NCBI RefSeq assembly: GCF_000019525.1
Contig: NC_010506.1
Location: 2,356,001 to 2,420,000, forward strand
Reading direction: 5' to 3'
Length of the DNA: 64,000 nt
Source of the DNA: Shewanella woodyi ATCC 51908
GTDB taxonomy: Bacteria > Pseudomonadota > Gammaproteobacteria > Enterobacterales > Shewanellaceae
Shown: positions 10,630 through 13,205 of the stretch, piece by piece
Numbering within the stretch: the first letter of the stretch is position 1
Layout of the letters: each line of letters begins with the position of its first letter
Program-made: the position numbers and the translations under genes
Notes under the pieces: generated by a model
Told to the model about the DNA's origin: nothing
What the model saw: only the letters and a program-made list of their open reading frames with translations
Database searches by the model: none

Positions 10630-11097
10630 ATGTCTGAGTACCTTGCCAATATTAGCTGGAAGAGAGCCGCTGATGAGGCATTTATTGATAATGAATATAG
10701 CCGAGGTCATCAGTGGTCTTTTGATGGCGGAGTCGAGATTTCAGCTTCCTCTTCACCTCATATTGTTCCTCTGCCGTTTTCTGTGGAGGCTAATGTTGAT
10801 CCAGAGGAGGCATTTGTCGCTTCACTTTCAAGTTGTCATATGTTGTTCTTTTTGGGGATTGCGGCAAAAAGGCGGTGGGTCGTTGATGCTTATCATGATA
10901 ATGCTGTGGGAGTAATGGGGCTGGATGAAAATGGGAAAATGGCGATGACTAAGGTACTGCTTAGGCCCAAAGTGACGTTTTCAGGAGAAAAGCAACCAAG
11001 CTTGGCTCAACTTGAAAAAGTGCATCACCAATCCCATGAACAGTGCTTTATTGCGAACTCAGTAAAAACAGAGGTGGTCACTGAAATCGTATTTTAG
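10630..11097 (+). CDS. OsmC family peroxiredoxin-like protein
   Basis: A 155-residue OsmC/Ohr-fold protein with the two conserved redox cysteines, one in ASLSSCHMLFFLGIAAK and one in HEQCFIANSVK. This is the arrangement used by OsmC and Ohr to reduce organic hydroperoxides. The sequence is closer to the general OsmC group than to Ohr, so the natural substrate is open. AAGGAG sits at good spacing before the ATG. It lies 36 bases after the GNAT gene. Confidence 0.9.
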   Translation: MSEYLANISWKRAADEAFIDNEYSRGHQWSFDGGVEISASSSPHIVPLPFSVEANVDPEEAFVASLSSCHMLFFLGIAAKRRWVVDAYHDNAVGVMGLDENGKMAMTKVLLRPKVTFSGEKQPSLAQLEKVHHQSHEQCFIANSVKTEVVTEIVF

Positions 11098-11152
11098 CGA
11101 AAAGAAGTTGATGCTGGGCGGGGGGATAAAGTGTCAACTATTTAAAAGTAAG

Positions 11153-11174
11153 TCGAGTACTGGCCTACTCGACC
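11153..11174 (+). terminator. Hairpin downstream of the OsmC gene
   Basis: GTCGAGTA pairs perfectly with TACTCGAC across the loop CTGGCC. No T-run follows, so this may be a weak terminator or an mRNA-stabilising hairpin. Confidence 0.35.
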
Positions 11175-11310
11175 TAACCTGAGTTGTAAATGATGACAAG
11201 CTCTTAGGCTAGTTTCATGACTCTACATTCAAAAAACAGCAAAATAATTGGTGGCAGATCCACTACTTGTGCTCGCTCCCTAGGCGTTCTTACGTTTGTA
11301 CATTTTGGTT

Positions 11311-11383
11311 AGACACTGCACAAGTCAACTCAAGAGTTAACATTAACAAACTATCTGTCTAAAAAATTAGACTAAAAGTGTCT
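11311..11383. promoter_or_regulatory. Candidate operator region of the XRE cassette
   Basis: AGACACT at 11311 and its inverse AGTGTCT at 11377 flank a perfect 6-4-6 palindrome, GTCTAAAAAATTAGAC (11357-11372). All three carry the half-site core AGAC/GTCT. The block is 80-150 bp before the XRE start, a normal place for regulator binding. That the XRE protein binds here is an inference. Confidence 0.4.
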
Positions 11384-11464
11384 GTAGTGTTAAAAATATG
11401 TTCTCCCTTTTAAAGGGCAGAGCTATATATCTTTTTATCAACGGCCAGTGGAAAAAAGGAATTT

Positions 11465-11746
11465 ATGTTCACAACACCAGAGATAGTCAAATCGCTTCGG
11501 TTGTCACAAGGATACAGTGTCACTGAACTGGCAAGTAAGATGGGGTGCAGTCGACAAACCATATATAACTGGGAGGATGGGGTCTCAGAACCTAAACTGT
11601 CTCAGTTTCTGCATTTATGTGTGATTGTGGGGCTTAATCCAAATAATTTACTTCCTAAAATACCTTCAAAAATGAGTAAAACACAGATCACAGACAAGGA
11701 GTTTCAAGATGATAATCAGCAATCCTCCACTGATTTCACAAAGTAG
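11465..11746 (+). CDS. Small XRE family helix-turn-helix regulator
   Basis: In this 93-residue protein, residues 5-60 are a standard XRE/Cro HTH: SLRLSQGYSVTELASKMG, then the recognition helix CSRQTIYNWEDG, then LSQFLHLCVIVGLNP. About 30 polar residues follow, whose coding DNA overlaps the next gene by 38 bases in another frame. AAAAAAGGA precedes the start. No sensor domain is visible. The arrangement suggests it regulates the repeat-peptide gene and membrane-protein gene that follow. Confidence 0.85.
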   Translation: MFTTPEIVKSLRLSQGYSVTELASKMGCSRQTIYNWEDGVSEPKLSQFLHLCVIVGLNPNNLLPKIPSKMSKTQITDKEFQDDNQQSSTDFTK

Positions 11747-12065
11747 TCAGCTAAAATCAATATCCTCAAGTGAAGTAGGGATCACACGGAAGACAACTGG
11801 GGGAGATGTTCAGCCACCACCAAAAATTCAAGCTGAAGGACCAGTGATCACACCAAACACAACTGGAGGGGCACTTCAACCACCACCAAAAATTCATGCT
11901 GAAGGACCAGTGATCACACCAAAGACCACAGGTGGAGCACTGCAACCCCCACCAAAAATCCATAATGATGAGATGGTGACTTACGCACGAGGCGCTTCAG
12001 GAGTTATCTCTTCTGACGCTGATAAAACGATAGGTGCCCATACCTCCATATCCGTTAATGTGTGA
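11709..12065 (+). CDS. Proline-rich peptide with three 22-residue repeats, unknown function
   Basis: This 118-residue protein matches no family I recognise. Residues 1-24 are a polar leader, residues 25-90 are three tandem 22-residue repeats of the form ITPxTTGGALQPPPKIHAEG, and a 28-residue tail ends VTYARGASGVISSDADKT-. There is no signal peptide, membrane segment or cysteine. The start is well supported: AAGGAG lies seven bases before ATG, inside the end of the XRE gene, giving a 38-base overlap and probable coupling. Over the core of repeats 2 and 3, seven of 13 codons differ and all seven changes are synonymous, which indicates selection on the protein. It could be a multi-core secreted or modified peptide, a signalling peptide, or an adaptor with repeated PPPK docking sites. 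Confidence 0.75.
   Translation: MIISNPPLISQSSQLKSISSSEVGITRKTTGGDVQPPPKIQAEGPVITPNTTGGALQPPPKIHAEGPVITPKTTGGALQPPPKIHNDEMVTYARGASGVISSDADKTIGAHTSISVNV
11781..11978 (+). repeat. Three tandem 66-bp coding repeats
   Basis: Units at 11781-11846, 11847-11912 and 11913-11978 each encode 22 residues in frame. Units 1 and 2 are nearly identical over their last 13 codons. Unit 3 diverges at its C-terminal end, where AEGP becomes NDEM. Confidence 0.9.
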
Positions 12066-12165
12066 TATTCAGTTAGGTTTAAGCAGTGAAGGTTAATGTA
12101 TTTAACACTTTTACTTTAATTGTGTTTTTACTGGTTGAAGTTAGGAATAGGATGTTTCCAAACTT

Positions 12166-12708
12166 ATGTTAGAGTATTTTTCACTGTTTAACCGCATTGA
12201 ATGGGCGCTTATCATCATAGCTTTTGCTGTGAGTGCCAAATCTGCCAATATCCGTTGGTTGACGGGGACATTGATTGTTTTAAAGACGATTGATGTTTTA
12301 GTTATTGACATTATTTTACAGTGGGGAGGTTTTTATTACCTTGCTATCTCATTTTATGATGTCGTTATTATTGCAATGATACTGAATCGGCAAAAAACAG
12401 CCTCCTGGATTGCTGGTCTGAATATTCCAGTATTGAGTCGACTTGCACTAGGTTCTGCCCAATATTATAAACTGACAAGTAATGAGATCTGTTTAATTTT
12501 ACTGTATCTAGCGTCAATTTTGGTTAATCTACTCTCTTTGAGTGAACGTTTAGTCCGTAAGTACACTGAGTTTGAACCTATGTTTTTCTACAATATATAT
12601 CCTGAGGCGAAGCTTACATTAACAACTTTAAGCATTTTAATTCTCTGCTCTGTTGCGATAAATGGTGCGAACAATCTCTATCGGGACAGGAAAGGACAAA
12701 AATTATAA
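12166..12708 (+). CDS. Multi-pass membrane protein, unknown family
   Basis: A 180-residue hydrophobic protein with about five predicted membrane segments, near residues 12-28, 32-53, 56-74, 106-125 and 150-167, and short polar loops. A charged stretch, SERLVRKYTEFEP, lies between segments 4 and 5. I recognise no transporter, holin, CPBP-protease or signalling motif. It lies 100 bases after the repeat peptide on the same strand and may be its exporter, receptor or immunity partner, but this is inference from position only. The ribosome site is weak (AGGATG about 12 bases upstream). Confidence 0.7.
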   Translation: MLEYFSLFNRIEWALIIIAFAVSAKSANIRWLTGTLIVLKTIDVLVIDIILQWGGFYYLAISFYDVVIIAMILNRQKTASWIAGLNIPVLSRLALGSAQYYKLTSNEICLILLYLASILVNLLSLSERLVRKYTEFEPMFFYNIYPEAKLTLTTLSILILCSVAINGANNLYRDRKGQKL

Positions 12709-12722
12709 TTTAATGGTGAAGC

Positions 12723-12768
12723 ATGAGTTGGTTACTAATGGGGAAACCTTCAAAGTAAACCAACTCAT
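12723..12768. other. Long hairpin between the membrane-protein gene and the convergent small gene
   Basis: ATGAGTTGGTTACT pairs with AGTAAACCAACTCAT (one bulge) across a 17-base loop, giving a stem of about 14 bp. No T-run follows on either strand, so it is not a typical terminator. It may protect convergent transcripts from decay. Confidence 0.5.
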
Positions 12769-12799
12769 TAAAAGATGAGCATTTTGCTAATGTATATGG

Positions 12800-13069
12800 C
12801 TAACTTTCAGCTTTTCCTGCTTCTTTGGCTTTCTTAATATCAAAATTATCCAGTAGAAGAAGGTTGTCGGCTAAGGCGGATTTGAGCTTAGTTGCGGGAG
12901 GCGTTTTTTTATCACGACTTAATGACTCTCTTCGCGTGACAGACTCTAATAGTGCTTCAAGCTTTTCGGGGGATTCAAGCTCGAGATCCGGAAGCTTTTT
13001 ACTGCTAGCGTCATTATAAAGTTTAAACTCATTCTTTAGGTGCTCTTGAGCTTCTTTAATTCTATTCAT
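12800..13069 (-). CDS. Small charged helical protein, unknown function
   Basis: An 89-residue protein when started at the ATG at 13069, which has GGAGAAG at good spacing; an upstream ATG at 13099 has no such site. The protein is rich in Lys, Glu and Leu (MNRIKEAQEHLKNEFKLYND, then SPEKLEALLESVTRRESLSR) and looks fully helical, with no signal peptide or membrane segment. No family is recognised. It converges on the XRE/peptide/membrane-protein cassette, and whether it belongs to that unit is unclear. Confidence 0.6.
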   Translation of the reverse strand: MNRIKEAQEHLKNEFKLYNDASSKKLPDLELESPEKLEALLESVTRRESLSRDKKTPPATKLKSALADNLLLLDNFDIKKAKEAGKAES

Positions 13070-13205
13070 CTGCGCTTCTCCATTTAAAATAAATGTCATC
13101 TAATTAAGCTAGTTCATAAGATGGGTTTACGCAAATTATTGAATTTCTCAATATTAAAGTGAATTCATTGCTCTTTTGGTTTAATTGTATGATCTAGTTT
13201 GGTTA

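Follow-up and report, generated by a model that had tools for sequence, protein, structure and literature searches.

The three genes of the cassette

The window, a stretch of 64,000 nucleotides from Shewanella woodyi ATCC 51908, contained a cassette of three genes on the forward strand, located where the preliminary description had placed them. The first gene (11465–11746, +) encoded an XRE-family helix-turn-helix (HTH) regulator of 93 aa (Pfam HTH_3, 36.7 bits against a cut-off of 23, E 4.4e-9). The second gene (11709–12065, +) encoded a peptide of 118 aa with three TTGG-x3-PPPKI units. Its ATG was located 38 bp inside the XRE gene, behind the AAGGAG ribosome site that had been described as strong (11696–11701, +), and this site was found at the equivalent place in five of the seven type I loci described below. 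Given this overlap of the frames, translation of the two is probably coupled. The repeats proposed earlier for the peptide were recovered as a 66-bp tandem repeat encoding 22-residue units (11780–11959, +; Tandem Repeats Finder, 2.7 copies with 85% matches).

The third gene (12166–12708, +) encoded a membrane protein of 180 aa, here called the TM protein. The AlphaFold2 model (34 sequences, mean pLDDT 85.2, pTM 0.79) comprised five long and two short helices, in agreement with the five or so membrane segments first suggested. Comparison of this model with solved structures gave no fold that was clearly similar. The best viral structure matches were mostly unnamed phage proteins of 140–165 aa (A0A2I7S3M5, E 0.03, probability 1.00). 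The peptide and the TM protein had been described as lacking a recognised family, and the library searches agreed: Pfam gave no match to either protein, and NCBIfam and PHROGs gave nothing significant. The TM family as a whole was recognised by none of Pfam, NCBIfam, PHROGs and PADLOC as scanned.

A candidate palindromic operator, GTCTAAAAAATTAGAC (11357–11372, unstranded), preceded the XRE gene. The block had been called AT-rich, which held for 12001–13000 (37.0% GC) and not for 11001–12000 (41.5% GC). Downstream of the cassette, a 99-aa gene (12800–13099, -) without a significant Pfam match was present in 36 of 129 Shewanella genomes, mostly without an adjoining cassette in the loci checked.

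Distribution and divergence of the cassette

Single-sequence searches (E<=0.001) of 129 Shewanella genomes detected the peptide in three and the TM protein in nine, and the widest profile placed the TM family in 11. Seven distinct type I loci were recognised: the window, S. nanhaiensis, S. hanedai, two in genome G096, S. waksmanii and one P2-like contig (two viral contigs were read, and one that repeated the prophage copy was counted once). The order XRE, peptide and TM gene, as well as an overlap of 38–53 bp between the XRE and peptide genes, was kept in all seven. Five aligned cassette orthologues of the XRE protein shared 54–98% identity with that of the window, and twelve TM proteins shared 45–86%. 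The type I peptides comprised one to four GG-x3-PxP units. Peptide homologues standing alone would have spoken against the proposed linkage; the peptide profile detected six loci at E<0.01 in the 129 genomes, all of them cassettes. Of 14 marginal loci (E 0.03–1), four were read, and all four were unrelated by eye.

The palindrome GTC[AT]AAN4TT[AT]GAC was located 105–121 bp before the XRE start in the seven type I loci. It was also found 112–146 bp before the XRE start in nine of nine type III loci (see below), six of which had C at position 4, a variant that was permitted only after the type III loci had been seen. There was no occurrence in 149,694 bases of other loci. The pattern GTCWAAN4TTWGAC had one other site in the genome of the window, and the same pattern written backwards had four.

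In genome G111, the methyltransferase gene, an OsmC remnant and the 99-aa gene were present, and the cassette between them was absent. This indicated that a genome can have or lack the unit as a whole. The region (L072, about 490–1764) is a site that either never received the cassette or has lost it. Next to the S. hanedai cassette, the OsmC-like gene (L016, 5689–6208) was in separate pieces and looked broken.

The XRE genes of the window and S. nanhaiensis were 96% identical, and the downstream flank was mostly 92–100% identical in steps of 60 bases. Identity was 72–87% over the repeats and most of the C-terminal part of the peptide (11801–12040), and the steps of the TM gene fell to 78–87% (12281–12460) and 65–88% (12521–12640). 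The dN/dS values were 0.06 for the XRE gene, 0.35 for the peptide gene and 0.19 for the TM gene. The dS was raised in the peptide (0.38) and TM (0.46) genes compared with 0.14–0.18 in the XRE gene and two neighbours. This suggests that divergent alleles of the peptide and TM genes were imported while both stayed coding, and such divergence beside a kept XRE gene might mark the two as a specificity pair. The contrast was imperfect, since the upstream flank was uneven as well (70–100% per step) and the divergence of the two genes was thus not unique. The type III pair L034/L035 displayed no such contrast (dS of 0.51, 0.23 and 0.50 for the XRE, peptide and TM genes). The kept order and overlap at all seven type I loci, together with dN/dS below 1 in all three frames, indicated that the arrangement is more than chance. 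The cassette noticed at first is real, and the observation extends further than first described.

A genome scan with a 14-row alignment detected 17 loci, eight of which were in Pseudoalteromonas. These eight, here called type III, comprised an XRE gene of 82–84 aa, a peptide with G[AS]GGVAGGGG(G)Q[VI]DP and a TM protein, and a ninth copy of this type came from a P. piscicida record. The type II loci, from deep-branching Shewanella, had the order peptide, TM protein of 225–229 aa and HTH protein of 114–150 aa. Twelve of them were displayed, one (L309) centred on the wrong frame. In eight, the peptide had between one and five Gly-rich/Pro repeats; the upstream frame of L314 and of L315 lacked GG..P, and no peptide was recognised in L321. 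Locus L312 of Shewanella G073 (1287–1460) looked intermediate: its peptide combined TGGEKPPPNN with a C-terminus like that of type I (ASINVKV), and its genes had the type II order. G839, which belongs to another genus of the family, possessed an XRE gene, a peptide of 83 aa that lacked GG..P and a TM protein of 209 aa. A further 15 distant TM members were found in seven Pseudoalteromonas genomes, where they accompanied a group of short double-glycine (GG) peptides.

Comparison of the TM profiles with hhalign gave a probability of 100 for type I against type III, and 97.4 for type I against both type II and the GG-peptide group. This supports the placement of all four in one family. R75, E107 and E127 were invariant across 24 diverse members, and the Glu equivalent to E107 was only nearly invariant across 31. 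In the model, with the orientation set by charge, R75 and E107 are predicted to lie where helices 3 and 4 end on the cytoplasmic side, with E127, R131, P138 and Y142 on the periplasmic side.

The genus search detected the TM family in 47 of 108 Pseudoalteromonas genomes, with up to 11 matches per genome. Two class-wide samples gave one and two of 369 genomes (the window's own genome in each, plus a weak match with an internal stop), and an order sample gave two of 394 (the own genome and G839). A narrow distribution is likely from these samples, which were thin per genus. An XRE gene lay upstream on the same strand of 26 of the 28 TM frames in the Pseudoalteromonas search loci, within 11 bp in 17 of the 26, and any match to the XRE profile was found in three of 165 control loci. 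Three TM-family genes in a row, with no peptide recognised between them, were observed in L236 (8592–10737) and L241 (3556–5703), and they recall orphan immunity arrays.

Peptides of the relatives and their export signals

The distant Pseudoalteromonas members were accompanied by short MK-x-L...GG...SPDLP frames, mostly directly 3′ of the TM gene; the 1.5 kb read contained as many as five of them in succession. In the type III loci L279, L280 and L283, a 30-residue peptide, GAAGGGVTSPDLPERKE, followed the TM gene at a distance of 80 bp. A GG-peptide profile was built from 15 peptides of seven genomes. It was applied to 30 loci, one per genome, from the genus search, which listed more than 100 further matches; removal of seven loci from the training genomes left 23. 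At E<=1e-3, the profile matched 19 of these 23 loci (39 peptides in 80.8 kb), which come from related genomes and are not independent, and none of 165 control loci (1.14 Mb).

C39-peptidase transporters have been described as recognising hydrophobic residues at -4, -7 and -12 before GG, GA or GS (PMC10885120). A GG, GA or GS site was present in 35 of 37 unique Pseudoalteromonas peptides. Among the 35, hydrophobic residues occupied -4 in 91%, -7 in 77% and -12 in 94%, and the site was combined with all three positions in 25 of the 37. The type III upstream peptides tested (six, with nine loci known) all fitted the leader with the site before the core, compared with 4–9% of shuffled sequences, and two peptides with two units had two leaders each. 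Ten peptides were compared with the NCBIfam model of the EntF induction factor, which matched the leader of two, in each case below its cut-off (E 0.0014 and 0.045). A different signal was found in Shewanella G055, where two copies had peptides with Sec-like N-termini as judged by eye and hydropathy; one of them continued with two TGSKVVPP units.

The preliminary description had compared the layout with peptide-signalling or peptide-export modules. The relatives lent support to this with their double-glycine-type leaders or Sec-like signals, and the window peptide did not, as neither a C39-type leader nor a signal sequence was found in it. Eight type I peptides were tested for the leader, and a site was present in P0003 only, near the C-terminus and not before the repeat. 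Among five type II peptides tested, only L022 had a leader-like site, which a third of its shuffled sequences had too. The type I peptides, including that of the window, thus had neither signal at their repeats, which counts against export in the window. We infer the release of this tandem-repeat peptide, which has no recognisable export signal, from its relatives only.

A C39 peptidase domain was present in 17 of 17 genomes; this says little, since eight of 14 control genomes had one too. Among the matches listed, the C39 domain closest to a TM gene was ~32 kb away (G861), and 20 C39 loci contained no GG peptide. Both observations count against the reading favoured below.

Possible functions of the peptide and the TM protein

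The three-gene unit is probably an undescribed peptide competition or communication system. We tentatively favour, at somewhat less than an even chance, an autoregulated operon for a short Gly/Pro-rich exported peptide and its cognate inner-membrane partner, microcin-like with membrane immunity. The XRE protein would set expression through binding to the palindrome, 108 bp ahead of the XRE gene. The signals seen in the sequences suggest two export routes for the peptide in the wider family: C39-peptidase ABC transporters, encoded at other loci, in Pseudoalteromonas, and Sec in a single Shewanella genome. The peptide would be released as a Pro-rich core. The five-helix protein, which adjoins the peptide gene in the order kept at all type I loci, would recognise the peptide, most likely as the immunity protein of a microcin-like competition system; immunity was ranked as more likely than a receptor role. 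Microcin immunity proteins are described as 51–216 aa in size, typically located in the inner membrane and encoded beside the precursor gene, often overlapping it (PMC10233263). The same review, from 2022, puts the number of microcins at only 15 and assigns all of them to Enterobacteriaceae.

The cassettes resembled class II microcins in the leader of most Pseudoalteromonas peptides, in the small multi-helix membrane protein encoded next to the peptide and in the overlapping frames of some copies. However, their cores were mostly 15–35 residues, Pro-rich and conserved (SPDLP), compared with microcins of ~5–10 kDa. They also possessed a dedicated XRE gene and no nearby C39 transporter, and the window peptide had no leader. 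Conservation of the SPDLP core, which we judged unusual for polymorphic bacteriocins, counts against the microcin-like reading. Several peptides shared a single TM gene at some loci, and this, like the rows of TM genes without a recognised peptide, counts against it too. The relatives without the peptide motif (L314, L315 and the G839 copy, and L321 with no peptide recognised) also argue against the favoured reading.

A pheromone circuit was considered rather unlikely. In such a circuit, the exported peptide would act as a signal and alter operon expression upon binding, and the TM protein would either sense it or anchor the co-translated XRE protein to the membrane. The short distance between most XRE and TM genes in Pseudoalteromonas suits a stoichiometric pair, the short leaders resemble the EntF induction factor, one TM gene adjoins several similar peptides, and the palindrome precedes the operon with one other site in the genome. 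However, no sensory domain was found in the five XRE proteins scanned, the palindrome search found no target besides the operon, and up to 11 TM matches per genome are many for signalling. The EntF/ComC-type induction peptides of Gram-positive bacteria are likewise short double-glycine precursors, to which two leaders showed weak EntF matches. They differ in that no kinase or response regulator gene was noticed beside the cassette loci read, and in that the membrane partner of the cassette is a five-helix protein of unrecognised family and its regulator a one-domain XRE protein. In agr-type systems, the AgrD peptide gene lies beside that of AgrB, a multi-helix membrane protein of ~180–200 aa. 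The cassette peptide gene adjoins a multi-helix membrane protein of similar size, but the TM alignments contained no invariant Cys, and an invariant His was present in the GG-peptide group only. RRNPP receptors such as Rgg, PrgX and AimR carry a C-terminal peptide-binding repeat domain on an HTH protein. The regulator of the window, at 93 aa, gave HTH matches only and no such domain. No RiPP modification enzyme was noticed by eye beside the precursor among the frames listed.

Some copies were borne by phages. In the G096 prophage and the P2-like contig, the cassette was located between the portal gene (phrog_68) and the origin-nicking replication gene (phrog_91), and it adjoined a phrog_603 regulator, which we take to be Ogr. 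In the contig, a C5-methyltransferase gene also adjoined the cassette. In Pseudoalteromonas, two copies had HsdM/HsdS or ThsB-TIR/QueC/Ogg/TIR-TGT genes within ~5.5 kb; the PADLOC scan of neighbours covered ten proteins from four loci and yields no rate. Locus L034 (5–4316) contained a cluster of ThsB-like TIR, QueC, Ogg-HhH, TIR-TGT and PfkB-type genes, possibly a nucleoside-based defence system. In L030 (3760–5301), a phage tail-hub (GPD)/VgrG-like gene followed the Pseudoalteromonas cassette, and the same protein start followed the near-identical cassette in L047 (6823).

These surroundings speak for an antiphage or superinfection-exclusion function, with the TM protein as an effector that is controlled by the peptide and kept silent by the XRE protein. 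The interval between gpA and gpQ of P2 has been reported as a hotspot of antiphage genes (PMC9122126), and the two phage-borne copies share this position with accessory cassettes such as old and tin. However, the window and the Pseudoalteromonas copies read sit elsewhere, and the defence models of PADLOC missed the TM family, with one match among 34 members at E 0.64. Export leaders would be hard to explain in an intracellular effector, and proximity to phage-defence genes has been reported for class II lanthipeptide clusters as well (PMC12715929). This function was regarded as improbable, yet as a serious rival in view of the two copies at the hotspot.

A further alternative is an intracellular pair: a disordered repeat peptide would tether the TM protein or regulate it in the manner of an antitoxin, without ever leaving the cell, and the leaders of relatives would be a later recruitment. 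This accords with the lack of export signals at the type I repeats, with the single leader-like site among five type II peptides and with a type I repeat number that varies from one to four, but it was considered the most doubtful, since the relatives have two different kinds of export signal and the type I gene order and palindrome are common to type III, whose peptides fit the leader.

No published description of an XRE/peptide/TM module was found in the literature, subscription papers and preprints being outside the scope of the search. Returning to the exported peptide and its membrane partner, we cautiously propose, as a possibility that falls short of being probable, a new peptide system of marine Gammaproteobacteria (Shewanella and Pseudoalteromonas), in which one new TM family and an XRE gene are combined with diversifying Gly/Pro peptides whose exit route differs between lineages (double-glycine leader, Sec signal or other). 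The system would be partly borne by P2-like phages, amplified up to 11-fold per genome, and used for competition or kin recognition. The competition and signalling readings can both be tested directly with short synthetic peptides. A simple gene signature leads to many candidate peptides and membrane partners in marine Pseudoalteromonas and Shewanella, including those in P2-like phage DNA.
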